From Cryobacterium frigoriphilum (GTDB lineage: Bacteria; Actinomycetota; Actinomycetes; Actinomycetales; Microbacteriaceae), in NCBI RefSeq assembly GCF_004403305.1, contig NZ_SOHE01000041.1:62001-126000 (forward strand): a stretch of 64,000 bases of DNA, read 5' to 3'. Shown here one piece after another: positions 1 to 64,000 of the stretch (position 1 is the stretch's first letter; every line of letters begins with the position of its first letter). Position numbers and translations under genes: made by a program. The notes under the pieces are model-generated. The model made no database searches, was not told the DNA's origin, and worked only from the letters and a program-made list of their open reading frames with translations.

Positions 1-105
1 ACCGTGCAGTCTGACACCGCGCAGTCCGACACCGGGCAGTCCCACAACACCGCGCAGTCCAGCAACACCGCGCAGTCCCAGAGCGCAGACGAGGTGCACG
101 CATGA
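1..105 (+). CDS. C-terminal tail of a gene cut by the window edge, probably CO dehydrogenase small subunit (CoxS)
   Basis: An open frame runs from base 1 to a TGA at 103-105 and overlaps the coxL start by ATGA. The 34 visible residues are a low-complexity tail of imperfect TAQSD/TAQSN-like pentads to hexads (15-18 bp units) ending in SADEVHA. No catalytic part is visible. The assignment to the 2Fe-2S subunit CoxS rests only on context: in coxMSL operons coxS lies directly upstream of coxL. A repetitive C-terminal tail would be an unusual addition to CoxS. Confidence 0.55.
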   Translation, partial: TVQSDTAQSDTGQSHNTAQSSNTAQSQSADEVHA

Positions 106-2495
106 CCCTCATCGAAGACCACCCGGCCAACCCGGCGGCCGGTGACGAAAGCCGGCCGATCGGCTACGGTCGACTGCAGCGCAAAGAGGACCCCCGCTTC
201 GTGCGCGGCAAGGGCCACTACGTCGATGACATCGTGCTGCCCGGCATGCTGCACGGAGCCATTCTGCGAGCACCCGTGGCCCACGCCCGACTCGTGTCGA
301 TCGACACCAGCGAGGCCCTCGCCCACCCGCACGTGCACGCCGTCATCACCGGAACCGACCTGCAGGCCCTCGGCCTGGCATGGGCACCGACCCTGTCGAT
401 GGACGTGCAGGCCGTGCTCGTGACCGACAAAGTGCGCTTTCAGGGCCAGGAGGTCGCCTTCGTCGTCGCAGATGACCGCTACGCCGCCCGCGACGCGCTC
501 GAACTGATCCGCGTCGAGTATGAGGTGCTGCCCCCGGTGATGGATGCCCGCACCGCCCTCGCTGCGGATGCCCCGGTCATTCGCGACGATCTGGAGGGGC
601 GCACCGACAACCACATCTTCGATTGGGAGGCGGGCGACGCGGCCGAGACCGATGCGGTCTTCGCGTCAGCGGATGTGGTCGTCAGCCAGGAAATCGTCTA
701 CCCCAGGGTGCACCCGGCGCCGATGGAAACCTGTGGCGCCGTCGCCGACTTCGATGCCGTCGACGGCCGCCTCACGCTCTACGAGACGACGCAGGCCCCG
801 CACGCCCACCGCACCCTGTTCGCCATGGTCGCCGGCATCCCCGAACACAAGATTCGGGTGGTCTCCCCCGACATCGGCGGCGGTTTTGGAAACAAGGTCG
901 GCATCTACCCGGGGTACATCCTCGCGGTCGTCGGCTCGATCGTCACCGGCAAACCGGTCAAGTGGGTCGAAGACCGCTCCGAGAACCTCATGTCCACCTC
1001 GTTCGCTCGGGATTACATCATGCAGGGCGAGATTGCCGCCACGAAGGACGGCACGATTCTCGGCCTGCGCACGACCGTGCTCGCCGACCACGGCGCCTTC
1101 AATGCGACCGCGCAGCCCACCAAGTACCCGGCCGGCTTCTTCCACATCTTCACCGGCAGTTACGACCTCAAGGCCGCACACTGCAAGGTGACCGGCGTCT
1201 ACACGAACAAGGCCCCGGGTGGCGTCGCCTATGCGTGCTCATTCCGGGTGACGGAGGCCGTGTACCTCGTCGAGCGGATGGTCGACATCCTCGCCGCGAA
1301 ACTGGGCATGGACCCGGCGGAGCTGCGCCTGAAGAACTTCATCAAGCCCGAACAGTTTCCCTACGCGAACAAGACCGGGTGGGAGTACGACTCGGGCAAC
1401 TACGAACCCACCATGCGTCTGTCGATGCAGATGGCGGGCTACGACGAGCTGCGCCGAGAACAGAAGGAGAAGCGCGAACGCGGCGAGCTCATGGGCATCG
1501 GCATCTCGTTCTTCACCGAGACGGTTGGCGCCGGGCCCCGTAAACACATGGACATTCTCGGCCTCGGCATGAATGACGGTGCCGAGTTACGCGTGCACCC
1601 CACCGGCAAGGCGGTGGTGCGCATCTCGGTGCAGAGCCAGGGCCAGGGTCACGAGACGACGTTCGCCCAGATCGTGGCCGAGGAGCTCGGCATCCCGCCG
1701 GAGGACATCGACGTCGTGCACGGCGACACGGACCAGACCCCGTTCGGCCTGGGCACCTACGGTAGTCGCTCGACGCCCGTGAGCGGCGGCGCCGTGGCGC
1801 TCGTGGCCCGCAAGGTGCGCGAGAAGGCGAAGTTCATTGCCGCGGCGATGCTCGAAACCCGCCCGGAAGACCTTGAGTGGGAGAAGGGCCGCTGGTTTGT
1901 CAAGGGCGACCCGAGCGTGGGCAAGACCATCGCGGAGATCGCGATGGGTGCCCACGGCACGGTCGCCCTGCCGGAGGGCATCGACGGCAACCTCGACGCC
2001 GAGGTCACCTACGATCCGCCGAACCTCACGTTTCCGTTCGGCGCCTACATCTGCGTCGTCGACATCGATCCCGGCACCGGGCGCGTTGTGGTGCGCCGCT
2101 TCATCGCGGTCGATGATTGCGGCACCCGCATCAACCCGATGATCATCGAGGGGCAGGTGCACGGCGGCCTGACGGATGGCGTGGGCATGGCCCTGATGGA
2201 GATCATCGAATTCGACAAGGAGGGTAACTGCCTGGGTGGATCGTTCATGGACTACCTCATCCCCACCGCGATGGAGGTTCCCGACTGGGAGACCGGCTAC
2301 ACGGTGACCCCCTCACCGCACCACCCGATCGGTGCGAAGGGCATCGGAGAATCCGCCACGGTCGGTTCCCCGCCGGCCATCGTCAATGCGGTCGTCGATG
2401 CGCTCGCCCCCTACGGGATCACCCATATGGACATGCCGTGCACGCCCGCCCGGGTCTGGGAGGCCATGCAGGGTCGCCCGCGCCCGCCCATTTAG
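102..2495 (+). CDS. coxL: Aerobic carbon monoxide dehydrogenase large (molybdopterin) subunit, form I
   Basis: 797 residues, the usual CoxL length. It oxidises CO to CO2 at a Mo-Cu centre and passes electrons through CoxS and CoxM to the respiratory chain. The loop AYACSFR at residues 376-382 is the form I signature; Cys379 would be the copper ligand. This separates true CO dehydrogenase from form II and aldehyde-oxidase paralogues. Other xanthine-oxidase-family motifs are GGGFGNK near residues 258-265 and the GIGES stretch, with the probable catalytic Glu at 750. The start overlaps the preceding stop by ATGA, showing translational coupling, and coxF-, coxD-, coxE-, coxG- and coxI-like genes follow on the same strand. 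Everything visible argues for a functional enzyme; coxM and most of coxS lie outside the window. Confidence 0.95.
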   Translation: MTLIEDHPANPAAGDESRPIGYGRLQRKEDPRFVRGKGHYVDDIVLPGMLHGAILRAPVAHARLVSIDTSEALAHPHVHAVITGTDLQALGLAWAPTLSMDVQAVLVTDKVRFQGQEVAFVVADDRYAARDALELIRVEYEVLPPVMDARTALAADAPVIRDDLEGRTDNHIFDWEAGDAAETDAVFASADVVVSQEIVYPRVHPAPMETCGAVADFDAVDGRLTLYETTQAPHAHRTLFAMVAGIPEHKIRVVSPDIGGGFGNKVGIYPGYILAVVGSIVTGKPVKWVEDRSENLMSTSFARDYIMQGEIAATKDGTILGLRTTVLADHGAFNATAQPTKYPAGFFHIFTGSYDLKAAHCKVTGVYTNKAPGGVAYACSFRVTEAVYLVERMVDILAAKLGMDPAELRLKNFIKPEQFPYANKTGWEYDSGNYEPTMRLSMQMAGYDELRREQKEKRERGELMGIGISFFTETVGAGPRKHMDILGLGMNDGAELRVHPTGKAVVRISVQSQGQGHETTFAQIVAEELGIPPEDIDVVHGDTDQTPFGLGTYGSRSTPVSGGAVALVARKVREKAKFIAAAMLETRPEDLEWEKGRWFVKGDPSVGKTIAEIAMGAHGTVALPEGIDGNLDAEVTYDPPNLTFPFGAYICVVDIDPGTGRVVVRRFIAVDDCGTRINPMIIEGQVHGGLTDGVGMALMEIIEFDKEGNCLGGSFMDYLIPTAMEVPDWETGYTVTPSPHHPIGAKGIGESATVGSPPAIVNAVVDALAPYGITHMDMPCTPARVWEAMQGRPRPPI

Positions 2496-2503
2496 GCCGC
2501 CTG

Positions 2504-3622
2504 ATGTCGTCGACCCAGCACGCCGAGCAGCGCACCGCCCAACTCACCGCGCAACTCACCGCGCAACTCGCCGCGCAGCTCGCAGAGCGCCGCGAGCCGT
2601 TCGTGCGGGCGACCGTCGTGCGCGCGCAACGCCCCACGAGCGCGCACGCCGGGGACACGGCCCTCGTGCTGGCCACGGGGGTCATCGAGGGTTTTGTCGG
2701 CGGCGCCTGCGTCGAATCCTCGGTGCGCACCTACGGACTGCGCGCGCTGGCGGCACGGGAGCCGCTGCTGCTGCGCGTTGTTTCTGGTCACGACGGCACT
2801 GCTCTTAACGGCACTGCTCCTAACGGCACTGCTCCTAACGGCACCGCTCCTAACGGCACCGCTCCCGCCGAGTCCGGCGCGCCCCAGGAGGAAGGCGCGG
2901 TGCAGGAGGAAGGCGCGGTGCAGGTCACGAATCCCTGCCTGAGCGGCGGCACGATCGAAATCTTCCTCGAACCCTGTATTCCCCTTTTGCGCATCGTCAT
3001 CGTCGGCGCTACCCCCATCGCCCAGGCCCTTGCCGCCCTGGGTTCAGCGTTGGCGTTCGATGTGGTTCTGGTCGAGGGCGGCGAGGCCACCCCGCTCGGC
3101 GACGACGCCGCACTCATCGTCGCCTCCCACGGCCGGGAGGAGGAACCCGCCCTCACCGCGGCCCTCACCGCCGGCGTGCCCTACGTCGCGCTGATCGCCA
3201 GCCGCACCCGTGGCCGCGCCGTCGTGGACTCCCTCGAGGTGACCAACGAGCAGCGTGCCCGGATCGTGAGCCCCGCCGGCCTCGATCTGGGGGCTCGCAC
3301 GCCGGCCGAGATCGCGCTCTCGGTGTTCGCGCAGCTCGTGCAGTTGCGCGCCGCCGCTCGCGCGCAGGATCACGCGGGCTCGGCGATACCCGGCGCGACA
3401 CCCGACACAACGCCCGACGCAACGCCCGAACCGACCGGGTCAGAACAGGCGAGGCCGCATCCGTCGCCGGCGTTCGCGATCGACCCGATCTGTGGCATGT
3501 CCGTCGCCGCGGTACCGGCGTCTCTGCACGTCGATATCGACGGCGGCACGGTCTATTTCTGCTCCAACGGATGCCGCACCGCCCACCGCACCCGTACGGC
3601 AGCGCTCGAGCGGGCCACATGA
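2504..3622 (+). CDS. XdhC/CoxI-family maturation protein fused to a C-terminal YHS domain (CoxF-like)
   Basis: The ATG at 2504 lies 8 bp after the coxL stop and gives 372 residues. An XdhC_CoxI-like region (VIEGFVGGACVESSVRTYGL, about residues 60-80) is followed by a disordered linker, then a Rossmann-like XdhC C-terminal domain (RIVIVGATPIAQALAALG) from about residue 164. The C-terminus is a YHS domain: DPICGM near residue 327 and FCSNGC near residue 352. XdhC-family proteins help insert or sulfurate the molybdenum cofactor; YHS domains are small metal-associated modules. The linker holds five NGTAP pentads and two EEGAVQ hexads encoded by exact tandem DNA repeats. The role in Mo-Cu-S centre assembly is inferred from position between coxL and coxD. 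The stop overlaps the next start (ATGA). Confidence 0.85.
   Translation: MSSTQHAEQRTAQLTAQLTAQLAAQLAERREPFVRATVVRAQRPTSAHAGDTALVLATGVIEGFVGGACVESSVRTYGLRALAAREPLLLRVVSGHDGTALNGTAPNGTAPNGTAPNGTAPAESGAPQEEGAVQEEGAVQVTNPCLSGGTIEIFLEPCIPLLRIVIVGATPIAQALAALGSALAFDVVLVEGGEATPLGDDAALIVASHGREEEPALTAALTAGVPYVALIASRTRGRAVVDSLEVTNEQRARIVSPAGLDLGARTPAEIALSVFAQLVQLRAAARAQDHAGSAIPGATPDTTPDATPEPTGSEQARPHPSPAFAIDPICGMSVAAVPASLHVDIDGGTVYFCSNGCRTAHRTRTAALERAT
2792..2866. repeat. Tandem repeat, 5 x 15 bp, coding
   Basis: Five units of aacggcactgctcct with one or two substitutions each. They encode D/N-G-T-A-P/L pentads in the linker of the XdhC-YHS protein. A second array of two exact 18-bp units (encoding QEEGAV) follows at 2885-2920. 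Confidence 0.9.
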
Positions 3623-4701
3623 GCGGTTCTGGGCACGGCAGTTCTGGGCACAGCAGTTCTGGGCACACCGGTTCTGGGCACAGCAGTTCTGGGCACGGTA
3701 GTTCTGGGCACACCGGTTCTGGGCACGGTGCTCCGCGTCGCGGCGCCGGTGCCGAGGTGCGTCGCCTGCTGCCCGACGTCGACGCGGTGCAGAGCGCCTT
3801 CGACTCCGAGGACTATCTCGCCGACGAGGGTCTGGCGACCGCTGTGTTTCTCGCCGTGACCCTGGCGCAGCCGCTGCTGCTCGAGGGCGAACCCGGTGTC
3901 GGCAAGACCGAGGTCGCCAAGACGCTGGCTCGAGTGCTCGGCACTCCCCTGTTTCGGCTGCAGTGCTACGAGGGAATCGACGCCGGCGAGGCCCTCTACG
4001 AGTGGAACTACCCCCGCCAGCTGTTGGGTATCCGACTGGCCGAGGCGCGCAGCGACACCCTCACCGAGCATGAACTGTTCAGCGCCGACTACCTGCTGCG
4101 GCGCCCGATGCTGCAGGCGATCGAACACGCCGGGCCGCTCCCGGCGGTGCTGCTGCTCGACGAAATCGACCGGGCCGACGCCGAGTTCGAGGCCTTCACC
4201 TTCGAGCTTCTGGCCGAGGCCGCAATCACGATTCCCGAACTCGGAACCGTGCGCGCTGCGCATCCGCCGATCGTCATACTCACCTCCAACCGCACCCGTG
4301 ACCTGCACGATGCCCTCACCCGGCGATGCCTGTACCACTGGATCGACTATCCGGCACCGGAGCGGATCGCCGCCATCGTGCGCCGCCGGGTGCCCGCCAG
4401 TTCCGCGCCGCTCGCGCTCGAGGCCGCCGCCGCGATCACGAAGCTGCGCTCGCTCGATCTCGTAAAACCGCCCGGCATCGCCGAGGCCATCGATTGGGTC
4501 TCGGCGCTCGCCGTGCTCGGCGTCGACCGTCTCGCCCCGCGGCAGGTCGAGCAGACCTGGGGCACGGTGCTGAAGAATCGCGACGACCTCGAACTCGCCG
4601 GTGCGCGCGGGGCGGCCTGGCTCGTGGCCGACTCAGCCGGTACCGATTCCCCCGGCGTGCATTCCCCCGGTGTGCATTCCCCGGGCGGCAGCCATGGTTG
4701 A
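3619..4701 (+). CDS. coxD: MoxR-type AAA+ ATPase CoxD with a histidine-rich repeat N-terminus
   Basis: 360 residues from the ATG at 3619, which overlaps the previous stop by ATGA. Walker A is GEPGVGKTE near residues 91-98 and Walker B is LLLDEIDRAD near 177-186, typical of MoxR chaperones. In the best-studied carboxydotroph CoxD is needed to install sulfur and copper in the CoxL centre, and it works with a VWA partner, here encoded next door. The first 37 residues are odd: a Gly/Ser/His pentad repeat with His at 6, 11, 16, 21, 26, 31 and 36. Such evenly spaced histidines could bind Cu or Ni, but this is inference, because simple repeats are common in this genome. The C-terminus carries two copies of a PGVHS motif. 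Confidence 0.9.
   Translation: MSGSGHGSSGHSSSGHTGSGHSSSGHGSSGHTGSGHGAPRRGAGAEVRRLLPDVDAVQSAFDSEDYLADEGLATAVFLAVTLAQPLLLEGEPGVGKTEVAKTLARVLGTPLFRLQCYEGIDAGEALYEWNYPRQLLGIRLAEARSDTLTEHELFSADYLLRRPMLQAIEHAGPLPAVLLLDEIDRADAEFEAFTFELLAEAAITIPELGTVRAAHPPIVILTSNRTRDLHDALTRRCLYHWIDYPAPERIAAIVRRRVPASSAPLALEAAAAITKLRSLDLVKPPGIAEAIDWVSALAVLGVDRLAPRQVEQTWGTVLKNRDDLELAGARGAAWLVADSAGTDSPGVHSPGVHSPGGSHG
3622..3731. repeat. Tandem repeat, about 7 x 15 bp, coding for the His-rich CoxD N-terminus
   Basis: About seven units of gttctgggcacggca with variants. They encode S/T-G-H-G/S-S pentads and begin immediately after the start codon of coxD. Confidence 0.9.
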
Positions 4702-6037
4702 TCGAGCCGCACTGCCTGTTCGAGCCGCACTGGCTGACCGAGCCGCACTGGCTGCGGGATTGACGACGGCGCTGCGGCGGGCGGGCCTGCCGACGAGTCC
4801 CGATCGCGCTGCCCGCCTCGCGGAGGCCCTCGGCCAGGTCCCCCCGATCGCTCGAGGCCCGCTGTACTGGACCTGCCGAATCGTGCTGGTGTCCGCCCGC
4901 ACCCAGCTGCCGGTCTTCGACGCCGTGTTCTCGGCCGTGTTCGACGGTGTGCTCGATCCCGCAGACAGTCGCGGCGACCCGGCGGCACCGCCCGCCGTCG
5001 GCGCAGAGGCCCGCACCCGGCCGACCCCGCCGGACGCGCGGCCGAGTGCCCCACCCCCGACCGACGCAGAATCCCCCGAGCCGCGCCCCGCGGCATCCGT
5101 GCCCCCGACCGATGACGACGCTGACGACGACGCTGACGACGACGGGGCGGATGCGACGGAACGGGACACCTTGCTCATGGTCGCCTCCCCGGATGAGCGG
5201 CTGCACACGACCTCGTTCGCCGAGCTGCTGCCCGGTGAACTCGAGCAGTTGCGGCATCTCGTGCGTCGTCTCGTGCTCCGCTTACCCACCCGCAGGAGTC
5301 GTCGAACCCGCCCGTCGCGACGCGCCGGCGGCCGCCTGTCGATTAGGCACACCGTGCGGGCGGCGCAGCGCACCGGCGGCGATTCCACCCGACTGATCTA
5401 CGCCGCCCGTCGGCCGACGCCCCGGCGTCTGGTCTTTCTGTGCGACGTGTCAGGGTCGATGGAGCCGTACACCCGGGTGTACCTGTCGCTGTTGCAGGGC
5501 GCCGTGGCCACGGCACGCGCCGAAGCCTTCGTCTTCTCCACCCGCCTCACCCGCGTGACCCGCATGCTCGCGGCCCCGCAGCCCGACCTGGCCCTGGCCG
5601 CGGCCGCGGCGAGCACCTCGGACTGGGCCGGCGGCACCCGGCTCGCGGGCAGCATCCGCCTGTTCATCGACAACTTCGGGCGGCGGGGCCTCGCCCGCGG
5701 CGCAATCGTCGTCATCGTCTCCGACGGCTGGGCGACCGACGATCCGGCCCTCGTCGCCGCCCAGATGGCACGGCTGCGGCGCCTCGCCTGTCGGATCATC
5801 TGGGTCAACCCGCGTAAGGCCGCAACCGGCTACCAGCCGCTCGTGGGGGGAATGCAGGCGGCCCTGCCCTTCTGCGACGCCTTCGTCAGCGGCCACAGCT
5901 ACGCGGCACTGCACGAACTCGCCGCCGTGATCTCGACCGCAGGCACAGCTCCATCCACAGGCACAGCTCCATCCACAGGCACAGCTCCATCCACACACAC
6001 AACCAACCCACACCTAGGGGAATCTCATGCAACTTGA
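4694..6037 (+). CDS. coxE: VWA-domain protein CoxE
   Basis: 447 residues from the ATG at 4694, which overlaps the coxD stop by 8 bp. An upstream ATG at 4601 lies deep inside coxD and is less likely. The C-terminal half is a CoxE-type von Willebrand A domain: RRLVFLCDVSGSM with the MIDAS motif DVSGS at 251-255, then GTRLAGS and IVVIVSDGW. The middle has an acidic DDDADDDADDD stretch and a basic RRSRRTRPSRRAG stretch. CoxE proteins pair with the MoxR ATPase CoxD during copper insertion into CO dehydrogenase. The C-terminus ends in a GTAPST repeat encoded by three 18-bp units. The stop overlaps the coxG start region. Confidence 0.88.
   Translation: MVDRAALPVRAALADRAALAAGLTTALRRAGLPTSPDRAARLAEALGQVPPIARGPLYWTCRIVLVSARTQLPVFDAVFSAVFDGVLDPADSRGDPAAPPAVGAEARTRPTPPDARPSAPPPTDAESPEPRPAASVPPTDDDADDDADDDGADATERDTLLMVASPDERLHTTSFAELLPGELEQLRHLVRRLVLRLPTRRSRRTRPSRRAGGRLSIRHTVRAAQRTGGDSTRLIYAARRPTPRRLVFLCDVSGSMEPYTRVYLSLLQGAVATARAEAFVFSTRLTRVTRMLAAPQPDLALAAAAASTSDWAGGTRLAGSIRLFIDNFGRRGLARGAIVVIVSDGWATDDPALVAAQMARLRRLACRIIWVNPRKAATGYQPLVGGMQAALPFCDAFVSGHSYAALHELAAVISTAGTAPSTGTAPSTGTAPSTHTTNPHLGESHAT
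5939..5994. repeat. Tandem repeat, 3 x 18 bp, end of coxE
   Basis: Three units of acaggcacagctccatcc, encoding TGTAPS at the CoxE C-terminus just before coxG. Confidence 0.9.
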
Positions 6038-6896
6038 CAGCACCTTCACCGTCGTCGCACCGGTCGACACCGTCTGGGCGACGCTCATGGATTTCGAGCG
6101 CGTCGCCGGCTGTGTGCCGGGAGCACAGATTCTCAATCGACTCTCCGATGATGCCTATCAGGTCGGCATGAAGGTCAAACTTGGCCCCGTCACGATGGCG
6201 TACCGGGGCCAGATGAACGTGCTCGAGCGCGATGCGGCCGCGCACCGGGCCGTCTTTGACGGCAAGGCGCAGGAGACCCGCGGTCAGGGCACGGCATCGG
6301 CGACCGTGACGCTCGTGCTCGTCGAAACCGACGGCACGACTCAGGGCACGGTGAGCGCAGACCTCGCCCTCTCCGGCAAAGCAGCCGCCATGGGCAAGGG
6401 CGTCATCGGAAGCGTCACCGACCAGATGATGGCCCTGTTCGCGAGCAACCTGCAGCAACTGATCGAGCAACCGGCGACGGATGCCGCGGGCACCGATACC
6501 GGCGAGACTCCGGTCGGCGCCCACCTGCAGGAGCCCACCGAGCACACCCAGGAGTCCGACCGGGCGGTCGCCGAGATGGCCGATATCCCGCCCGGCGAGG
6601 CCTATGCCGCCGACCGGCTCACGGCGGTCACGCCGGGGCCCGGCGAGCCGCGTCTTGACCCGCGCCGAAACGCACCCGGCGGGGTCAGTGCGGCTGGCGC
6701 GGCTGGCGCGGCCGGCGCACACCGTCCACTGCCGCACCATTCCCCGCCCGTGCCGCCCGAGACCAGTCTCAATGCCATGGACCTCGTGAAGGGTGTCGTC
6801 GCCGATCAGCTCAGCAACCCCGCCAAGCTGCTCGGGGTGATCGTCGGCGTCGCCTTTGTCGCGTACCGTATTGGGCGGCGCCGTTCCGGCCGCTAG
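6027..6896 (+). CDS. coxG: CO dehydrogenase subunit G (SRPBCC fold) with C-terminal membrane anchor
   Basis: 289 residues, with the ATG at 6027 inside the last codons of coxE and an aggggaa ribosome-binding site. Residues 1-150 match the CoxG/SRPBCC family: a hydrophobic-ligand-binding fold starting MQLDSTFTVVAPVDTVWATLMD, then VPGAQI and TVSADLALSGKAA. A disordered Pro/Gly/Ala-rich linker follows, and the last 25 residues (LLGVIVGVAFVAYRIGRRR) form a membrane helix with a positive tail. CoxG proteins recruit the CO dehydrogenase complex to the membrane, and a mycobacterial homologue has been reported to carry menaquinone. The architecture fits tethering the enzyme near the quinone pool. The linker contains a GAA/AGA micro-repeat. 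Confidence 0.9.
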   Translation: MQLDSTFTVVAPVDTVWATLMDFERVAGCVPGAQILNRLSDDAYQVGMKVKLGPVTMAYRGQMNVLERDAAAHRAVFDGKAQETRGQGTASATVTLVLVETDGTTQGTVSADLALSGKAAAMGKGVIGSVTDQMMALFASNLQQLIEQPATDAAGTDTGETPVGAHLQEPTEHTQESDRAVAEMADIPPGEAYAADRLTAVTPGPGEPRLDPRRNAPGGVSAAGAAGAAGAHRPLPHHSPPVPPETSLNAMDLVKGVVADQLSNPAKLLGVIVGVAFVAYRIGRRRSGR

Positions 6897-6913: not shown

Positions 6914-6965
6914 AGATCAGCTCGACAGATCAGCTCGACAGATCAGCTCGACAGATCAGCTCGAC
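6914..6965. repeat. Intergenic tandem repeat, 4 x 13 bp
   Basis: Four perfect copies of agatcagctcgac sit between coxG and coxI and end just before the coxI ribosome-binding site (ggagg at 6972-6976). The unit length is not a multiple of three, in line with a non-coding position. Confidence 0.95.
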
Positions 6966-6978
6966 AGTAACGGAGGAC

Positions 6979-8181: not shown

Positions 8182-9459
8182 GTGCCCCATGTTTTGACGC
8201 CCCTCCACATCGCCCTCGTCTGTCTGCACACCTCGCCCGGAGACGAACCGGGCTCCGGCGACGCCGGCGGCATGAACGTCGTCGTGCGGCACCAGGCCGA
8301 AGCGCTGGCCGCACTCGGGCACACCGTCGACATCCTCACCCGGCGCAGCTCCGCCACCCTGCCGGACTTCGTCGATCTCGCCCCGGGGGTCACCCTCCGG
8401 TTTCTCGACGCCGGCCCGGCCGAGCCCGTCGCGAAAGGTGACCACGAGTCGTTCGTCGATGAATTTCGCGCCCGCATGAGCGCCCTCGGACCCTGGGACG
8501 TCATCCACTCGCACCACTGGTTCTCGGGCATGGCCGCCCTGCCGCTCGCCCGGTTGACCGGCACCCCGCACGTGCAAAGCTTTCACAGTATCGCGGCGCC
8601 CGAGAGCTCACCGCTGTCCTGGGGCGAACGGCCAGAGTCCCCCGGTCGCCTCGCCGGTGAGGCGTGGCTTGCCCAACAGTCCGACGCGGTCATCGCGATC
8701 AGCGAGGCCGAGGCCGACACCGTGCTCGAACGCCTCGGTGGTTCGGCCGACCGTCTGGCCATCGTGCCGCCCGGTGTCGACGGAACCCTGTTTCGTCCGA
8801 GCGTCTCGCCACCGTCCAGCCCGGGCCAGTCCCACCCGCTCGAGTCGGGACCGCGCGAGTCTGGACCACGCGGCTATGCGATCGTCGCCGCACGCCTGCA
8901 GCCCCTGAAGGGGCTCGACCTCGCGATCGAGGCCGTCGCGGCCGTCGCCGAGGACCTGCGCCCCGACCTCATCATCGCGGGCGATGCGTCGAGCGACTTC
9001 GATGGCTACGTCGACGAGCTGCGCGAGCTGGCGGCCGCTCGCGGCATCGCCGACGGCGTTCGATTCGTGGGACCTCAGTCCCGCGAAGACTTGGCGACGC
9101 TGCTGAGCGGCGCACAAGTCGTGCTCGTGCCGTCACATTCCGAGACCTACGGACTCGTGGCCCTCGAAGGCGCCGCGAGCGGAGTTCCCGTTGTCGCGGC
9201 GGCGGCCGGAGGTCTGCGTGAGGCGGTCATCGACAGCGAAACCGGCTTGGTAATGCAGTCGCGCGACCCCGCCCTCTGGGCCGCCGCGATCGCGCGCATA
9301 GTCTCCGACCCGGCGTTCGCCGATCGATTGTCGCATGCCGGTCGCGAACGTGCCGAACTTCTCAGCTGGGAGCGCTCCGCCGCCGGCCTCGCCGCCGTCT
9401 ACCGCGCGCTGCTGCACCCGGATGCTGCCGGGCGCCACCAGGAGCTCGCAATCGCGTGA
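8182..9459 (+). CDS. Glycosyltransferase family 4, MshA-like
   Basis: 425 residues from GTG. The N-terminal motif HTSPGDEPGSGDAGGMNVVV closely resembles that of MshA, the D-inositol-3-phosphate glycosyltransferase that starts mycothiol synthesis. HSHHWFSG follows near residue 113. The C-terminal GT-B domain has ARLQPLKGLDLAIEAV and the E-x7-E nucleotide-sugar motif in SETYGLVALEGA near residue 323. The next gene is an MshB-like deacetylase overlapping by 4 bp, which strengthens a mycothiol reading, since MshB acts on the deacetylation step of the same pathway. A generic sugar transferase remains possible. A PLESGPRESGPR micro-repeat sits in the linker near residue 220. Confidence 0.8.
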   Translation: MPHVLTPLHIALVCLHTSPGDEPGSGDAGGMNVVVRHQAEALAALGHTVDILTRRSSATLPDFVDLAPGVTLRFLDAGPAEPVAKGDHESFVDEFRARMSALGPWDVIHSHHWFSGMAALPLARLTGTPHVQSFHSIAAPESSPLSWGERPESPGRLAGEAWLAQQSDAVIAISEAEADTVLERLGGSADRLAIVPPGVDGTLFRPSVSPPSSPGQSHPLESGPRESGPRGYAIVAARLQPLKGLDLAIEAVAAVAEDLRPDLIIAGDASSDFDGYVDELRELAAARGIADGVRFVGPQSREDLATLLSGAQVVLVPSHSETYGLVALEGAASGVPVVAAAAGGLREAVIDSETGLVMQSRDPALWAAAIARIVSDPAFADRLSHAGRERAELLSWERSAAGLAAVYRALLHPDAAGRHQELAIA

Positions 9460-10745: not shown

Positions 10746-12281
10746 CTAACTCACGGCGCGGTTGGCGCGGTGGTTTTGGGCGGGCCGCCACGTTTGGCTG
10801 GGGTCTATCCAGGCCGGGCCGAGTACTTCGGGCCGTCCGTGGGTCATGCGGATCTGCCAGCCCGAGGTGTCGATGGCGTGGTGATGTCGGTAGCAGAGGC
10901 AGACTCCGTTGGCGACTTCGGTTTTGCCGCCCTGGGCGTAGCTTTTCACGTGGTGCAGTTCGGTCCAGTACGCCGGGATGTCGCAACCCGGGATGATGCA
11001 GCCGCCGTCGCGAGACATGATGGCTTTGGTCATCGCCGGGGAGAACGCCCGCCGCTTATCGCCAACACGCAGCACCTCGTTATTCGGACCGAACAAGATG
11101 GGGATGAACCCGCCGCTGCAGAGGGCCTGGTCGACGGTCTTCAAGGAGACCGGGGCGTCGACCCCGTCGATCCAGCCGACGCCGCGCCCGGCGTTGAGGT
11201 CAACCGCGTTCACGTGCACCGTGACGGTGGGGGCGGAGCCGCCCATCACCCCAGCTTTCGGGTCGCGGGCGGCTTCACGGACCATGTCACGCAGAATATC
11301 GGCCCGCTTCTCGCCGGCGGGGCGACGGTCGATGTCGACGACGTCGGTGTCGGGCACGACCTCGGCCCCCTCGGACCCGTCGGCCCCCTCGGACCCGTCG
11401 GACCCGTCGGCCCCCTCGTGCCCGTCGGCCCCGTCGGCCCCGTTCAGCTCGGTCTGTCCGGCGGTGGGTAGAAACTTCACCGTCGCCCGCGCCGACAGCC
11501 GGGACGCGAAATACGTCTCGAACTCGCCCCGCAGGTCGGGCGTGACGCCGCCGAAGATCCGGTACAGGCCCCGTTCGAACGAGCCGAAACTGATGCTGCT
11601 CTTGGCCTCCCGAGCCTCTTCCTGAGGTGCGATACCGTCGGGGTCGAGGCGGGCCTGCCACTCATGTACCAACACCCGCATCCGATCAGCCGGCAACGCG
11701 ATACCGGCGCCGGGGAGACCCTCGGTGTCGTCGTTGAGTGCGCCCGTCGCGTTGGCTACCAAGACTCGTTCGGCGAGGTGCAGGTCCGAGGGGTCGGCCT
11801 GCCGGATGACCTCCTGCAGGCCTTTCACGATGATCTCGGCCGAGTCCACGCCAATCTCCCCGGCGGCCAGTGCCGCACTCACGGTGGGAAACACCGCCGG
11901 TCGCAGCGGACCCACCCCGGATCGCACGCTGGTCAGCGCCCCCAGGCTGATGCGTCGGCTCACTTCCCGCACGGACACGTGGGTGACGCTCGTGATCAGG
12001 TCGAGCTTGCCGGTGCAGCCCATGCGCTTGGAGAGGCTGGGCGTGCCGCCGAAGAGCTCGACGTCGGCGCGGCGGGCAACCTCCGCTGTTGATGCAACGC
12101 GGGCACCATCGACGCGGCGGCCGAGCTGCTCAAGACCATCGAGAAGCGCGAGCGACTCGGCATCTTCTTGCAGCGCGTAGGTCAGCCCGGTCAGGGCCTT
12201 GGCGAGCAGCTCGTTGATGTGGGCGAGCTGGTCTACCGGATTGTGGTCGGCATCTGTGTCCGACGGGAGTGTCTGTGACAT
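10746..12281 (-). CDS. DUF222 / HNH endonuclease domain protein
   Basis: 511 residues. The N-terminal two thirds look like the DUF222 (13E12-repeat-type) region common in multicopy actinobacterial proteins. The C-terminus is an HNH nuclease domain: [18 protein letters not shown], then [14 protein letters not shown] near residues 427-475, with paired cysteines and His residues in place. Between them is a run of [10 protein letters not shown] units encoded by 9-bp repeats (about 11363-11448). TAAACT six nt before the ATG suggests a leaderless transcript. The gene is inserted between ssrA and smpB, where these two are usually close. The biological role of this family is unknown; no partner methylase is nearby. 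Confidence 0.85.
11363..11448. repeat. Imperfect 9-bp tandem repeat, coding
   Basis: Units related to gacccgtcg and gccccctcg alternate about nine times, encoding an acidic Gly/Asp/Glu/Ser linker of the HNH protein. Confidence 0.75.
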
Positions 12282-16634: not shown

Positions 16635-16642
16635 GTCGACCC

Positions 16643-16648
16643 AGCCTA
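16643..16648 (-). promoter_or_regulatory. Candidate -10 for prfB (leaderless)
   Basis: TAGGCT on the minus strand, 8 nt before the prfB ATG, with no Shine-Dalgarno sequence. Confidence 0.4.
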
Positions 16649-16713
16649 CCGGCCCAGACCCCTCACACGTGCGGGCCCGCACGCCCGGTCGCAGTGGATA
16701 CGGGCAGCTGGCG

Positions 16714-16719
16714 TAGCAT
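16714..16719 (+). promoter_or_regulatory. Candidate -10 for the MFS gene (leaderless)
   Basis: TAGCAT on the plus strand, 8 nt before the ATG at 16728. Confidence 0.35.
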
Positions 16720-16727
16720 CGAAATCT

Positions 16728-43100: not shown

Positions 43101-43115
43101 CGAGGAGGCGCCACG

Positions 43116-45168: not shown

Positions 45169-45187
45169 CCGTCCGGTTCGTCTGCGC

Positions 45188-45262
45188 GATCGGCGCCCAG
45201 ACCATCGGTGCCCAGTCGATCGGTGCCCAGTCGATCGGTGCCCAGTCGATCGATGCTCAGAC
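45188..45262. repeat. Tandem repeat, 5 x 15 bp
   Basis: Units of gatcggtgcccagtc lie between the TagF-like gene and the next glycosyltransferase. The stop codon of the latter (45257-45259) is within the array. Confidence 0.9.
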
Positions 45263-49890: not shown

Positions 49891-49960
49891 GGGGTGCTCC
49901 TTCCAAGCTGTGCCAGCCTTGCGCCTCAACCTGAGCGTTTGGTATGCGCAAACTGGGAGC

Positions 49961-50040
49961 ATTCAATGTCGACACCGTGCATTCAATGTCGACACCGTGC
50001 ATTCAATGTCGACACCGTGCATTCAATGTCGACGCCGTGA
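49961..50040. repeat. Tandem repeat, 4 x 20 bp, in the divergent promoter region
   Basis: Three exact copies of attcaatgtcgacaccgtgc and a fourth with two changes. Each has a GTCGAC palindrome, so the sites recur every 20 bp, close to two helical turns. The array lies between the protease and aminotransferase genes. Confidence 0.95.
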
Positions 50041-52532: not shown

Positions 52533-52784
52533 GAGCCACTCATTCTGTTGATCATGCCATCTGTTGATACGCCGCTGCCTGTTGCTATGCCACTGGCCGT
52601 TGATAAGCAGTTGGGGCCGCAACGGCGAACCCGGCGCACTGGTCGACAACGGCCGCACGGGCGCCCGTATTCCACTCGCGGTACTTCATCAGGCATTTCA
52701 TCAGCCGCTTCTCAGGCACTCCGTGAAGTGGTTCCCGGCGTCGGTCGCTCCAATCCACCGGGGCGTCCGCGACGAACCTGTTAC

Positions 52785-53855: not shown

Positions 53856-54044
53856 CCCCCAATGCTTGGCACGTCTCTTGTGGCGGCCGCGCAAAAGGAG
53901 CAGAGTGAGTAGAGCAGCACAGTGAGTAAAGCTCCGGTTCATTTGCACAGTCGGTTCTCTTACGCAGTCGGTTCACTTGCACTGTGGAAAGCACCGCTTT
54001 CGCCGGCCCCTGCACCTCGCGCGACCGATCGAAAGTGACACACC

Positions 54045-55430: not shown

Positions 55431-56186
55431 ATGCCCAACACTCTGGTCATTATTCCCACCTATAACGAGCGCGACAACATCGGGCCGATTGTGGCGCGAG
55501 TGCGGGCGAGCGTTCCGCAGGCCGATATTCTCGTCGTCGACGACGCCAGCCCGGATGGCACGGGCGTGCTGGCCGACGCCCTGGCCGTCGGGGACACGCA
55601 GGTGCACGTTCTGCATCGCCGGGCGAAGGCCGGGCTGGGTGCGGCGTATCTGGAGGCGTTCGGTTGGGGCCTCTCCCGCGGTTACGACCGGCTCGTGCAG
55701 CTTGACGCCGACGGCTCGCACCTGCCCGAGCAGCTGCCCGACCTGCTCGCGGCCGCGAATTCGGCGGACGTCGTCATGGGATCCCGGTGGGTGCCCGGCG
55801 GACAGGTGAAGAATTGGCCGTGGCACCGGCGCGCGCTCTCGCAGGGCGGATCGATCTACTCGCGGGTGATTCTGCGCCTGCGGCAGCGCGATGTGACGGG
55901 CGGCTACCGCGTGTACACGAAATATGCCCTGGAGCGCATGCAACTGTCCAACATCGACAGTTTGGGCTATTGCTTTCAAATCGACATGCTGTTGCACGCG
56001 GTGCAGGCCCGTCTGCTGGTCGTCGAGGTTCCGATCACCTTCGTCGAACGAACGCTCGGCTCGTCGAAGATGAGCGGCCGCATCGTGGCCGAGGCGATGG
56101 GCCGGGTCACGCTCTGGGGGCTCACCGGCATGGGCGCCACACGCTCGACCGTCGCGCGGGCCGCGGCGAGTCCCGGCCGCGGCTAG
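55431..56186 (+). CDS. Polyprenol monophosphomannose synthase (DPM1/Ppm1 catalytic domain)
   Basis: 251 residues. TLVIIPTYNERDNIGPIVARV, DILVVDDASPDGTGVLAD and LVQLDADGSHLPEQLP (DAD motif) then SRWVPGGQVKNWPWHRRALSQGGS are diagnostic of dolichol/polyprenol-phosphate mannosyltransferases. The product, polyprenyl-phosphomannose, feeds lipoglycan and O-mannosylation pathways. This is the soluble type; no membrane domain is fused to it. Confidence 0.9.
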   Translation: MPNTLVIIPTYNERDNIGPIVARVRASVPQADILVVDDASPDGTGVLADALAVGDTQVHVLHRRAKAGLGAAYLEAFGWGLSRGYDRLVQLDADGSHLPEQLPDLLAAANSADVVMGSRWVPGGQVKNWPWHRRALSQGGSIYSRVILRLRQRDVTGGYRVYTKYALERMQLSNIDSLGYCFQIDMLLHAVQARLLVVEVPITFVERTLGSSKMSGRIVAEAMGRVTLWGLTGMGATRSTVARAAASPGRG

Positions 56187-56205
56187 CCCCGACCAGGCCT
56201 GGACC

Positions 56206-56295
56206 GCCTCAGTCTGAACAAACTCAGTCTGAACAAACTCAGTCTGAACAAACTCAGTCTGAACAAACTCAGTCTGAACAAACTCAGTCTGAACC
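56206..56295. repeat. Tandem repeat, 6 x 15 bp, intergenic
   Basis: Units of aactcagtctgaaca (four exact) lie between the mannosyltransferase gene and the NAD operon. Confidence 0.95.
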
Positions 56296-56375
56296 AACTC
56301 GTCCGGCCACCTGCCATGAGGGTGGCCGGGTCCCTCACCGGACCTATATGATGGCTTCAACAGTTAGAGTCCCCG

Positions 56376-56413
56376 TGACCTTTACCTGATGGAATGACCT
56401 TTACCTGATGGAA
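56376..56413. repeat. Exact duplication, 2 x 19 bp, before the Nudix-type regulator gene
   Basis: tgacctttacctgatggaa occurs twice in tandem and includes an ATG in each copy (56389 and 56408). The first opens only a 2-codon ORF; the second is an alternative regulator start. Confidence 0.9.
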
Positions 56414-56434
56414 GCCACCCTTCATGAAGCTGCG

Positions 56435-57286
56435 ATGACAAGTCCCCGAGTGAACACGCTGGCCGTGTCGACGGTGATCTTTGCGCTGCGCCCCCGCGGC
56501 GATACCGGTGCGACCATGATCGGCACTCAGCTGCCCGACACTGCGCTGCCCGACACTGCGCTGCCCGGCACTCAGCTGCCCGGCAACCAATTGCTCTGGG
56601 TGCCGCTTGTACGCCGCACCCGCGATCCGTTCCTGGGGCTGTGGGCGCTGCCCGGCGGCTGGCTCTCGGCCGAGGAAGAACTGGCCGTCGCGGCCTCCCG
56701 CACGCTGCACGAGACGACCGGGCTCGCCCCGAAGTTTCTCGAGCAGCTCTTCACCTTTGGCGACCTCGACCGCTCCCCCGGTGACCGCGTCGTGTCGATC
56801 GTCTACTGGGCTCTCGTGCAGTCGACCGAGGCCGATCGTGCCACCGTCGACGACAACGTGCAGTGGTTCGCTGCCGATCGGCTGCCGCCGCTGGCCTTCG
56901 ACCACAACCGCATCGTCGAATACGCCCTGTGGCGACTGCGCACGAAGATGGAATACTCCCGGATCGCGCAGGCCTTCCTGGGGACGACTTTCACACTCGC
57001 GCAGTTGCGCGAGGTGCACGAGGCCGTGCTGTTGCGGCCGCTCGACCCGGCCAATTTTCGGCGTTCGATGGAGACCTCAGGCACGCTCATCGACACGGGC
57101 GAACGGGTCGCGGGGGCCCGCCACAGACCACCCCGCCTGTACCGCTACAGTGCCGGCACCGAACATCCGGAACCCAGCCAACCCGCCGTCCGGCACACCA
57201 TCCAGCCGCCCTTCCAGCCCACCATCCAACCCACCATCCAGCCCAGCCGCCACGAGGAGCACGCCCATGACGATCGCATCCGTTGA
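56435..57286 (+). CDS. NrtR-type Nudix-winged helix regulator of NAD synthesis
   Basis: 283 residues from ATG 56435, or 292 from ATG 56408. The N-terminal Nudix domain reads GGWLSAEEELAVAASRTLHETTGL: the catalytic box REUxEExGU has become RTLHETTGL, so hydrolysis is probably lost and ADP-ribose or an NAD intermediate is sensed. A C-terminal winged helix (about 170-230: FTLAQLREVHEAVLLRPLDPANFRR) should bind DNA. A TALPDTALPG repeat is inserted in the N-terminal domain and IQPTIQP repeats end the protein. It overlaps nadA by 20 bp and is probably the autoregulated operon repressor. Confidence 0.85.
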   Translation: MTSPRVNTLAVSTVIFALRPRGDTGATMIGTQLPDTALPDTALPGTQLPGNQLLWVPLVRRTRDPFLGLWALPGGWLSAEEELAVAASRTLHETTGLAPKFLEQLFTFGDLDRSPGDRVVSIVYWALVQSTEADRATVDDNVQWFAADRLPPLAFDHNRIVEYALWRLRTKMEYSRIAQAFLGTTFTLAQLREVHEAVLLRPLDPANFRRSMETSGTLIDTGERVAGARHRPPRLYRYSAGTEHPEPSQPAVRHTIQPPFQPTIQPTIQPSRHEEHAHDDRIR

Positions 57287-58586: not shown

Positions 58587-60211
58587 CCACGCTGTCGGTG
58601 CTCGTGATCGGCAGCGGCCTCGCGGGCCTGGTCGCCGCGGTCCGGGCGACGGATGCCGGCCACCACGTCGTTCTCGTCACCAAGGCCGCCCTGCCCGAGA
58701 GCAACACGCGCTACGCGCAGGGCGGAATCGCGGCCGCGCTGTTTCCCGACGATTCCGTGCGCACGCACATCCGCGATACCCTGCGGGCCGGTTCCGGGCT
58801 CTGTTCCCCGGCCGCGGTGCGCATCCTCTGTTCCGAGGGACCGGCTCGGGTGCGCGACCTGATTCGGTTCGGCGTCGACTTCGATCGGGACGAGTCGGGA
58901 GTGTCACGGGGCCTCGAGGCCGCACACTCCCGCTCGCGGGTCGTGCACGCCGGCGGTGACGCGACCGGTGCCGTCGTCGAAAATGCCCTCGTCGCCACGG
59001 CCAGGCAGCGCGCCGCCCAGCCGAACGCCCGACTGCAGATTCTGGAGCACACCATGCTCACCGATCTCGCGGTGACCGACGGGCGGGTCACCGGCGTGCG
59101 AATCGTGCAGGGCGGCAAGCCCGGCACCCTCGCAGCGGATGTCGTGGTTCTCGCCACCGGCGGCGGCGGCATGCTCTATCGGCACACCACGAACCCGGCC
59201 GTGGCGACCGGTGACGGCCTCGCCGCGGCGTGGCGAGCCGGAGCATCCGTCGCCGATCTCGAGTTCTACCAGTTTCACCCCACCGCACTGGCCGTTCCCG
59301 GCACTCCCCTCGTGTCGGAGGCCGTGCGCGGTGAGGGCGCCGTGCTGCTCACCCGCGCCGGAGACCGATTCATGATCACCGAACACCCCGACGCCGAGCT
59401 CGCCCCGCGCGACGTCGTGGCCCGCGGCATCGCACGGCAGATGGCCGCGCAGAGCGGCGAGCCGGTGGTGCTCGACGCGACCGCTCTGGGGCGCGAGCTG
59501 CTCGAGCGCCGCTTTCCCACGATCACCGCCGCCTGCCGCGCGGCCGGGCTGGACTGGGCCCGGCAGCCCATTCCGGTGGCCCCGGCCGCGCACTACTGGA
59601 TGGGCGGCATCGTCACCGACATCTGGGGGCGCAGCACCCTGCCCGGCCTGTACGCCGTGGGCGAGGTCGCCCGCACCGGCGCGCACGGCGCCAACCGGCT
59701 CGCCTCCAACTCGCTGCTCGAAGCCGCGGTCTTCGCCGACCGGGCCGTGCGAGCGCTGGCCTCGGAGCCGGGCAGAACCGCCGGCACGACGGCCACCCTG
59801 GTTCCGACGCCGACGGCGCCACCGACAGCGCCATCGACAGCGCCATCGGCGAGCGCGGCGACGCCGGGCCTGCGCGGGGCGCTGCAAGACCTCATGTGGC
59901 AGTCGGCCGGCGTGCACCGGTCCGGTGCCGGTCTCGCCACAGCCGTGCAGACCCTCGCCGGGTGGAGCGCCGCCGCAGCGCCCCGCACCGTCGCCGAACA
60001 CGAGGACCGCAACCTGCTCGACCTGGCACGCATCACGGTCGCGGCCGCACTCGAACGCCAGGAATCCCGCGGCGCCCACCACCGGGCAGACTTTCCCGAC
60101 CCGAGAGCGGAACTCGCCGTGTCGTCGGCGTGGACGATCGCCGCCGCAACACCACACCCGCTCCGTCCCGACGATGTCGATTCCGAGGCCCAGGAGGCCA
60201 TTGCATGCTGA
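58583..60211 (+). CDS. nadB: L-aspartate oxidase
   Basis: 542 residues from ATG 58583, overlapping the nadA stop (ATGA). GSGLAGL binds FAD; TRYAQGGIAAAL, RSRVVHAGGDATG, FYQFHPTAL and ARTGAHGANRLASNSLLEA are diagnostic. Oxidises aspartate to iminoaspartate for NadA. A Pro/Thr/Ala linker (TAPPTAPSTAPS) near residue 410 is encoded by a 12-bp repeat. Confidence 0.96.
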   Translation: MTTLSVLVIGSGLAGLVAAVRATDAGHHVVLVTKAALPESNTRYAQGGIAAALFPDDSVRTHIRDTLRAGSGLCSPAAVRILCSEGPARVRDLIRFGVDFDRDESGVSRGLEAAHSRSRVVHAGGDATGAVVENALVATARQRAAQPNARLQILEHTMLTDLAVTDGRVTGVRIVQGGKPGTLAADVVVLATGGGGMLYRHTTNPAVATGDGLAAAWRAGASVADLEFYQFHPTALAVPGTPLVSEAVRGEGAVLLTRAGDRFMITEHPDAELAPRDVVARGIARQMAAQSGEPVVLDATALGRELLERRFPTITAACRAAGLDWARQPIPVAPAAHYWMGGIVTDIWGRSTLPGLYAVGEVARTGAHGANRLASNSLLEAAVFADRAVRALASEPGRTAGTTATLVPTPTAPPTAPSTAPSASAATPGLRGALQDLMWQSAGVHRSGAGLATAVQTLAGWSAAAAPRTVAEHEDRNLLDLARITVAAALERQESRGAHHRADFPDPRAELAVSSAWTIAAATPHPLRPDDVDSEAQEAIAC

Positions 60212-62227: not shown

Positions 62228-62258
62228 AAAGGCCCGGAACCACTGGTTCCGGGCCTTT
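62228..62258. terminator. Bidirectional intrinsic terminator
   Basis: Perfect 14-bp arms (aaaggcccggaacc / ggttccgggccttt) with an ACT loop. It ends the nad operon on the plus strand and follows the first initiator tRNA on the minus strand. A gtgtttctg 9-bp tandem repeat follows at 62260-62288. Confidence 0.85.
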
Positions 62259-62259
62259 C

Positions 62260-62288
62260 TGGTGTTTCTGGTGTTTCTGGTGTTTCTC
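62260..62288. repeat. Tandem repeat, about 3 x 9 bp
   Basis: tggtgtttc units between the terminator and the tRNA-fMet 3' end. Confidence 0.85.
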
Positions 62289-62549: not shown

Positions 62550-62635
62550 CTACAAGATTTAGGTTAGCACACCCCGGTGACCGGGTCGTACCACCGCCGG
62601 TTCGGCGGGGCACGACCCAGCTACCTGTTGAGGTT

Positions 62636-64000
62636 CTACTCGCCGAGCAGGGCGAGCATGCTCGCGATCGTCTCGGTGAGTTTCGCGTCAGCGACACCGA
62701 ACGCGGCGAAGTCACCGGAGCTCAGCGCGGCCTGCTTTTCGGCGAGCGCCGTGTTGGCGACCTCGAGCAGAGCCTTGAGTTCGGCATCCGTCGCCGGGTC
62801 ACCGGTCGAGGTGGCCCCGTCGGTGGCGCCGTCCGTTGCCGTCTCATCGGTCGGGCTCGTGGTCGAGATGTCGTCCTCGGTCACGGGCACCTCGGTGTCA
62901 CCGGCCGCGGCTCCGGAGTCGCCGCCGAAGAGCACGTCGAGAGCGGAGTCGAGGGTGTCCTCGAAGGCGATCTGGTCTCCGAAGGCCACGAGCACCTTCT
63001 GCAGCAGCGGGTAGCTGGTGTCACCCGTGGACTGCACGTAGACCGGCTGCACGTAGAGCAATCCGCCACCGACCGGGAGCGTCAGGAGGTTGCCGTTGAG
63101 CACCGTGGACGATCCCTGTCGCAGCAGGTTGAGCTCGGTGGAGACCGTCGGGTCACCGTTGAACTGGTTCTGTACCTGGCCGGGGCCGGGAACGGTGCCG
63201 TCCTTGGGCAGGGTGAGCAGTCGCAGCGTTCCGTAGTCGTCATCGCGTTCACCGTCGACGGATCCCGCATCCGCGTTCACCGACAGGTAGCCGGTGAGAA
63301 CGTTTCGGCTGCCCTCTCCCGAAGCGTTCGGCTGGAAGGTGGAGTAGAGCGAGTACGACGGCTCGTCCTGGTCGGGCATCTGCATCGTCAGGTAGTACGG
63401 CGGCTGCAGTGTCGGGTTCGCGGCCGGCGACGCCGGGTCGTTGGGCGAGGTCCAGGCGTCGTCCTGCGAGTAGAACGAGCCGGGCTCGGTGACGTGGTAC
63501 TGGCCGAGAATCGCGCGCTGAACCTTGAAGAGATCGGCCGGGTACCGCACGTGGCTCATCAGGTCGCCGGTCATGTCACTCATCGGCTTGACCGTGGAGG
63601 GGAAGATCTTCTGCCAAGTCTGCAGCAGCGGCTCTTCGTCGTCCCAGGCGTAGAGGGTGACCTCGCCGCTGTACGCGTCGACGGTGGCCTTCACCGAGTT
63701 GCGCATGTAGTTCACGCTGTCGAGCGCGAAGGGCTGCGCCGGGGTTTCGGTGTCGGCGATGGCGTCGCTCAGGCTGACCGGCGTCGAGTACGGGTAGCTC
63801 GCCGAGGTCGTGTAGCCGTCGACGATCCACTTGACCCGACCGTCAACGACGGAGGGATAGGCGTCGGAGTCGAGCGTGAGGTACGGCGCAACCTTCTGCA
63901 CGCGCGTGACGGGGTCGCGGTCGTACAGCACCTGCGACTCGTCATTCACGGAGTCGGCCAGGAAGATCTGCTCCGACTGGAACTTGAGCGCGTAGATGAG
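62636..64000 (-). CDS. UPF0182 family membrane protein, 3' part (cut by window end)
   Basis: The open frame runs to the window edge; 454 residues are visible and the start lies beyond. LIYALKFQSEQIFLADSVNDESQVLYDRDPVTRVQKVAPYLTLDSDAYPSVVDGRVKWIVDGYTTSASYPYS is the conserved extracellular region of UPF0182 proteins. The N-terminal seven-helix part is missing here. The C-terminal 100 residues are acidic and Thr-rich. Large integral membrane proteins of unknown function found across Actinobacteria. Confidence 0.92.
   Translation of the reverse strand, partial: LIYALKFQSEQIFLADSVNDESQVLYDRDPVTRVQKVAPYLTLDSDAYPSVVDGRVKWIVDGYTTSASYPYSTPVSLSDAIADTETPAQPFALDSVNYMRNSVKATVDAYSGEVTLYAWDDEEPLLQTWQKIFPSTVKPMSDMTGDLMSHVRYPADLFKVQRAILGQYHVTEPGSFYSQDDAWTSPNDPASPAANPTLQPPYYLTMQMPDQDEPSYSLYSTFQPNASGEGSRNVLTGYLSVNADAGSVDGERDDDYGTLRLLTLPKDGTVPGPGQVQNQFNGDPTVSTELNLLRQGSSTVLNGNLLTLPVGGGLLYVQPVYVQSTGDTSYPLLQKVLVAFGDQIAFEDTLDSALDVLFGGDSGAAAGDTEVPVTEDDISTTSPTDETATDGATDGATSTGDPATDAELKALLEVANTALAEKQAALSSGDFAAFGVADAKLTETIASMLALLGE

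Follow-up and report, generated by a model that had tools for sequence, protein, structure and literature searches.

A regional hotspot of fast-turnover 12-20 bp tandem duplications on a Cryobacterium chromosome

What kind of process fills one piece of a bacterial chromosome with dozens of short tandem arrays that bear no relation to one another? The question is raised by a 64,000-bp stretch of the 4.38-Mb draft genome (93 contigs; G000 hereafter) of Cryobacterium frigoriphilum, comprising positions 62001-126000 of the 241-kb contig C60 and referred to here as the window. C60 is a chromosomal-type contig that carries SmpB, FtsX, NadA, and other housekeeping genes; judged by RNase PH, the named relatives that match G000 best are Cryobacterium. 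Tandem Repeats Finder (TRF) returned 61 raw rows for the window at a score of at least 40; once overlapping rows were merged and periods under 7 or 8 excluded, 40 arrays were counted at a score of at least 50 and 22 at a score of at least 80, several of them 97-100% exact. Shuffling the window 20 times in local codon blocks, which preserves local codon content, gave only 0-5 arrays at the lower score and none at the higher. An earlier note on this DNA had listed 21 arrays, and each of the 21 positions falls inside a TRF array with the listed unit or a multiple of it, or no more than 30 bp away from one; at 3622 and 11363 the top-scoring row had a period of three listed units (45 = 3x15 and 27 = 3x9, respectively). 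The arrays are real, recent-looking, mutually unrelated in sequence, and built within genes on units divisible by three, as that note had described. What the window presents is a set of regionally concentrated, fast-turnover short tandem duplications.

The regional concentration is evident from counts of exact tandem duplications with 12-20 bp units. The window holds 23 such duplications in 64 kb (3.6/10 kb) and the remainder of C60 another 38 in 176 kb, as against 61 in the 720 kb (36 stretches) sampled elsewhere in G000 (0.85/10 kb; stretch L215, which overlaps L010, is excluded), 37 in 1,260 kb of nine other Cryobacterium (0.29/10 kb), and 7 in 400 kb of eight other genera of the order (0.18/10 kb). 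Loci around RNase PH include a hot ABC ATPase linker that inflates their densities, and these were kept out of the rate tests. The window exceeds the sampled rest of G000 4.2-fold (p 1.7e-7) and is therefore a hotspot; C60 as a whole exceeds it 3.0-fold (p 3e-9), and this rest in turn exceeds the nine congeners 2.9-fold (p 2.5e-7), the further step from congeners to other genera being 1.7-fold and not significant (p 0.29). Perfect arrays of at least three units and at least 50 nt reach 125/Mb in the window and 58/Mb on C60 (14 in 240 kb), compared with 7.9/Mb in other Cryobacterium and none in 400 kb of other genera. The nearest genome within our sample belongs to a sister species (G003), whose contig C44 (111,996 bp) is collinear with C60, most aligned blocks being 80-90% identical. 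C44 carries 15 exact duplications in 112 kb, 4.6 times the density of other Cryobacterium (p 1e-5), though it does not differ significantly from four further stretches of G003, which hold 4 in 76 kb (p 0.1). No hotspot was seen in a 60-kb stretch of a third Cryobacterium genome, G007, around the corresponding gene (4 arrays at a score of at least 80), and a look at GC skew and strand bias across 19 stretches of that genome gave no clear link between the hotspot and terminus position. The firm claim is thus a regional hotspot, with a genome-wide excess limited to short exact duplications. The earlier note had named normal density throughout the genome as the finding that would speak against its own claim of pervasive arrays; this is not simply what the counts give, as both the window and the rest of the genome are raised for exact duplications, but long perfect arrays in the rest are not.

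A draft of 93 contigs invites the suspicion of an assembly artefact, and since GC-rich Actinobacteria carry some arrays, ordinary background is a further candidate. We regard either as very improbable: the shuffles come near zero, other genera lie far lower, units within genes are in frame, and a separately assembled sister species has arrays at matching places.

With gene limits that are our own, drawn from open reading frames (ORFs), GC3, and Pfam and not from curated annotation, the unit length is a multiple of three in 23 of 24 coding arrays as against 7 of 16 intergenic ones (Fisher p 0.0003). Divisibility by three within genes, as the earlier note had it, holds in all coding arrays but a weak 16-bp one at the 3' end of a GT2 gene (56159-56191; 2.1 copies, 88% match), which runs beyond the gene end, and its observation that other unit lengths occur between genes is borne out. 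Pfam domains of the XdhC-like, CoxE-like, ABC ATPase, and HtrA-like proteins lie outside the repeat stretches, which fall between domains or in tails. In the XdhC/CoxI-like ORF, TRF and translation place a 24-bp unit (12x2; 2.8 copies, 2514-2579) in the N-terminal part, two arrays in the linker between two XdhC domains, as delimited by Pfam (15 bp, 4.9 copies, repeat NGTAP, 2793-2865; 18 bp, 2.2 copies, 2885-2924), and a 12-bp unit in the C-terminal region (2.4 copies, 3401-3429). The VWA/CoxE-like ORF carries, again by translation, an 18-bp array at its start (3.3 copies, 4695-4754) and a 12-bp array in the acidic linker DDDADDDADDD (2.6 copies, 5114-5144). The N-terminal region of the HtrA/DegP-like protein contains QQQNP (15 bp, 3.1 exact copies, 49656-49702) and EANQQA (18 bp, 4.8 copies, 49759-49841). 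Five arrays lie in the N-terminal linker of the ABC ATPase: 18-bp units at 39142-39180 (2.2 copies) and 39174-39225 (2.9 copies), and 15-bp units at 39248-39306 (3.9 copies, repeat LAAQT), 39395-39430 (2.4 copies, from TRF alone), and 39494-39576 (5.5 copies), the other four being read in translation as well.

This ABC ATPase (38245-39816, minus strand) has a long, low-complexity N-terminal linker that recurs as a hot linker with arrays of the 15/30/45-bp type. An array is found there in 17 of 20 syntenic loci (L025-L041, L049) from Cryobacterium and nearby genera, with approximate positions, and two of the three negative loci sit on short contigs.

Comparison with G003 shows that sites recur while units mostly change. 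Of 53 arrays mapped onto the sister contig, 18 have a G003 array no more than 100 bp away, whereas 2000 shifts gave 3.0 on average and 10 at most. Two of 52 arrays could not be tested for the content of the matching gap, and several share one G003 gap; at the 50 testable sites the G003 gap holds an array in 26, mostly with unrelated units, is shorter in 38, and contains a recognizable form of the G000 unit in only 11. Unit length is also swapped at matching sites. The C-terminal tail of the VWA/CoxE-like protein, where an 18-bp unit in 3.1 exact copies encodes STGTAP (5940-5995), has an unrelated 9-bp array in G003, and an intergenic 15-bp array (3.8 copies, 42560-42616) faces an unrelated 13-bp one. 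An intergenic 20-bp unit in four copies (4.1 by TRF, 49959-50039) is single in G003, beside a different, 18-bp array, and two exact intergenic 19-bp copies (56376-56413, from sister alignment and junction count) correspond to a single copy with a 14-bp duplication of its own alongside; at these two sites the single-copy state is visible. Length is kept at the 3' end of ORF 20223-20882 (minus strand), where the 18-bp array (7.1 copies, 20228-20354) is matched by an unrelated 18-bp array, and for an array of 11.2 copies of a 9-bp unit (34907-35007), which probably lies between the divergent MurI and NAPRT genes, G003 has a single related copy region without an array. As this comparison shows, arrays decay and give way to new ones, which leaves sister species with unrelated units at matching tolerant sites.

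A second regularity is the size of the unit. In 960 kb of G000 there are 122 exact arrays with 12-20 bp units and 3 with 21-60 bp units. The raw spectrum in 660 kb, in which some arrays are split in two, is 19 arrays at 12 bp, 4 at 13, 3 at 14, 48 at 15, 6 at 16, 3 at 17, 12 at 18, 9 at 19, and 1 at 20, which is a narrow band with a peak at 15 rather than one single size. When mismatches are allowed, longer periods appear, partly multiples of 15 or 18; long units lose perfection earlier, and the upper edge of the band is therefore somewhat exaggerated. The units themselves are mostly unique in sequence, and their A content (17.5%) is close to that of the flanks (16.2%). They are mildly enriched in CAG and GCAC-type words, partly recurring in other Cryobacterium; CAGT, given via its complement ACTG, is seen 27 times against 9.2 expected, and less strongly on retest. 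As these words were chosen from the data on which they were tested, and most replicate weakly, we do not accept a shared motif in the units.

The narrow band and the word enrichment, together with the persistence of arrays in the ABC ATPase linker, could indicate that the repeats are selected and that unit length is itself functional, through a DNA-polymerizing protein, a small RNA, or useful linker repeats. A functional unit length has been proposed by Subirana and Messeguer for repeats of 20-21 and 52 nt (PMC8161180, PMC6749651). For the present arrays we consider it quite improbable, as sister species swap unit length at matching sites, coding and intergenic arrays occupy the same size band, and the word enrichment has the weakness just described.

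The reading we favor, although we put its chance at no better than even, is that the arrays are no conserved element but arise from a mutational process still under way, namely microhomology-assisted slippage filtered by selection. A stretch of mostly 12-20 bp would be duplicated in place, often aided by 3-10 bases of end homology, in a manner that may be likened to strand misalignment in replication or gap repair, and for which the junctions provide part of the evidence. With two copies present, slippage could then gain or lose whole units. Selection, as the placement pattern shows, purges arrays that break frames or folded domains; what survives lies in the gaps between genes, at gene ends, and in the linkers of proteins, with steps of three when coding. 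The comparison with G003 shows arrays that decay and are then replaced by new ones. Of the two-copy duplications that are clean, 34 in all (20 from G000, 4 from G003, and 10 from other Cryobacterium), 19 show a junction homology of at least 3 bases, where a simulation of blunt random duplication expects 8.5%; this makes slippage reasonable and, for no fewer than half of the clean duplications, favors misalignment of one short repeat with another.

Several points weigh against this reading. The homology count could be inflated by decayed third copies, even though neighbors at least 50% identical were excluded. The remaining 15 of the 34 duplications have only 0-2 nt of junction homology, which leaves room for fill-in joining, and some, such as the 19-bp duplication with zero homology at 56376, are hard to make by misalignment. 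All comparisons rest on one genome per species and are therefore between species and not between strains. Outside C60, G000 is not elevated for perfect arrays of the longer kind (6.9/Mb, 5 in 720 kb). Plain slippage predicts neither a regional hotspot such as C60 nor a limit on step size such as the one near 15-19 bp. Coding density does not account for the hotspot, being 0.86-0.91 on C60 and 0.91 on average elsewhere; a lower coding density as the cause of the hotspot is thus not seen.

The low-homology junctions would fit an origin in breaks or in a topoisomerase, in which paired nicks or a stalled topoisomerase I leave overhangs of 12-20 nt that are filled in, joined, and so copied, with an upper size limit given by the distance across which two nicks separate. 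The E. coli topA R168C allele is reported to generate new head-to-tail duplications of 2-19 bp, with hotspots (PMC6954433), and the 20-bp ceiling here resembles the ceiling reported there. A Ku match is present in G000, in 16 of 19 Cryobacterium searched and in 23 of 30 genomes overall. However, junction homology lies well over the blunt expectation, and across 30 TopA proteins those of G000 and G003 show no departure at columns where at least 90% of the 28 others agree, a comparison in which E. coli R168 was not itself mapped by alignment. Congeners that lack Ku, three in number, have a lower density, in the direction that Ku-dependent joining would predict, but the difference (8 in 420 kb vs. 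29 in 840 kb) falls short of significance (p 0.16). An origin of this kind is therefore possible but unlikely in our estimation. G015, G016, and G017, the three Cryobacterium of 19 in which the Ku match is absent, offer a natural contrast for end joining.

The earlier note had guessed at slippage in a lineage lacking MutS and MutL. Slippage itself is reasonable in light of the junction homology, but missing mismatch repair as its cause is not supported. MutS_V is indeed absent from G000 (MutL was not searched), as it is from Corynebacterium glutamicum in the control list; the alternative repair nuclease NucS (by its NucS_C domain), on the other hand, occurs in every one of the 30 genomes searched, G000 and congeners with a third of its density among them, and these low-density congeners share the repair state of G000. 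Loops of 12-20 nt are not known to be handled by MutS repair. A mutator due to mismatch-repair loss is thus rejected as a sufficient cause and, as an explanation, is highly unlikely. Loss of the PolA flap nuclease is rejected, as a gene loss, by the presence of 5_3_exonuc_N in 30 of 30 genomes (in an 898-aa frame in G000), and TopA is found in all 30, sparse ones included. We place no reliance on a residue-level comparison of NucS and PolA, in which the ORFs used were doubtful (NucS identity only 61%). Overall, the gene checks (NucS, 5_3_exonuc_N, TopA, MutS_V, Ku) reveal nothing that accounts for the excess. Nor are extra Y-family polymerases a clear correlate: there are three IMS matches each in G000 and G003 and 1-2 in several close relatives, but three also in the sparse G007 and five in G004, of which one stretch was sampled. 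The two G000 matches besides the main one lie at G000:C57:225241 and G000:C61:100205, and G003 likewise has two extra.

A duplication process tuned to size could address both the band and the hotspot: an enzyme reaching about 12-20 nt would copy its own footprint, candidate settings being paired nicks, short gaps or flaps, topoisomerase stalling, and restart by a primase, with one chromosome region specially exposed in this Cryobacterium lineage. We offer this tentatively, as an outside chance.

The earlier note knew of no named system of this kind, which is too strong, as close parallels have been published (PMC9879509, PMC8161180, PMC6749651). The tandem repeats of Borgs, as reported by Schoelmerich et al. 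(2023; PMC9879509), are likewise pervasive, near-perfect, and mutually unrelated, divisible by three inside ORFs and mixed between genes, of recent, independent origin, and often accompanied by partial repeats alongside and disordered protein segments. From Table 1 of that paper, Borgs average about 56/Mb by the rule for perfect arrays used above, a density matched by C60 and exceeded by the window but far from reached in G000 outside C60. Borgs are, however, archaeal extrachromosomal elements and not a bacterial chromosome, the band is tighter here, and their reported A-enrichment is not seen in the present units. The size-constant, sequence-variable repeats of Subirana and Messeguer (PMC8161180, PMC6749651) are described as having species-specific abundance, a preferred unit size, unrelated sequences, and turnover between strains or species, a profile that the present arrays resemble, but theirs measure 20-21 and 52 nt and form families with shared words, whereas here 15 bp dominates a spread of 12-20 and units are mostly unique with weak word sharing. 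The E. coli topA R168C mutator (Bachar et al., PMC6954433) is alike in its hotspots and its head-to-tail duplications of up to 19 bp; it is a laboratory allele, whereas the conserved columns of TopA look normal here, and its duplications are described as independent of existing repeats, unlike the majority of ours. The present case resembles the Borg, Subirana-Messeguer, and topA systems and fully belongs to none. We found no report on tandem repeats in the genus Cryobacterium in the literature searched. Variable-number tandem repeat (VNTR) or minisatellite loci, which serve in strain typing, are also short arrays presumed to arise by slippage; the density in this region is far higher.

The remaining arrays of the window fall on both sides of gene borders. 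Intergenic arrays also placed by sister alignment have units of 13 bp (4.2 exact copies, 6914-6967), 16 bp (4.1 copies, 40840-40904), 19 bp (2.4 exact copies, 40910-40955), 10 bp (4.7 copies, 43055-43101), and 15 bp (5.5 copies, 45187-45268; 6.2 copies, 56208-56300). Two intergenic arrays with 17-bp units follow one another, of 2.3 copies at 53894-53932 and, with sister mapping, of 2.8 copies at 53935-53982. Intergenic arrays from TRF alone have units of 10 bp (2.9 exact copies, 31586-31614) and 9 bp (3.6 exact copies, 62256-62287), and a 36-bp unit (18x2; 1.9 copies, 14-80) is either intergenic or at the upstream gene's end. Also from TRF are seven copies of a 15-bp unit (also called as 45) between the XdhC-like and AAA genes, inside the longest ORF of the latter (3622-3726), a 15-bp array at the AAA gene end (2.8 copies, 4646-4687), and arrays in a CoxG-like gene (9 bp, 3.2 copies, 6690-6718), a glycosyltransferase gene (15 bp, 2.5 copies, 8836-8872), a DUF222 gene (9 bp or 27, 9.1 copies, 11360-11443), near the start of an OYE-like gene (weak, 18 bp, 2.5 copies, 52561-52605), and in coding sequence at 59811-59848 (12 bp, 3.2 copies). 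ORF 56408-57286 contains, by translation, a 15-bp array (4.3 copies, 56521-56585) and a degenerate 12-bp array in its C-terminal tail (6 copies, 57174-57245). Two neighboring ORFs, both with provisional start sites, are an FtsE-like one at 14102-15421 (minus strand; 439 aa, ABC domain at 19-166) and an MFS one at 15615-17984 (plus strand) with about 390 residues ahead of the transporter domain. In G007, a different kind of repeat is seen, with tandem arrays of 45-55 bp (L130, L134, L141, L142) built on a dispersed palindrome, GGTCTCGAC..GCTCGACCA, which has 16 exact pattern matches in 6 of 19 G007 stretches and none on C60.

How tandem repeats originate from non-repeated DNA is an open question according to Bachar et al. 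(PMC6954433). A culturable genus with many fresh two-copy duplications in a narrow band, and with dense and sparse as well as Ku-positive and Ku-negative relatives, would make this question testable, and what merits pursuit is the size band together with the hotspot. If the arrays are neutral, they caution against reading repeats in linkers or upstream regions as functional elements. If the size-tuned process were true, linkers and promoters in the exposed region of this Cryobacterium chromosome would be continually rewritten.

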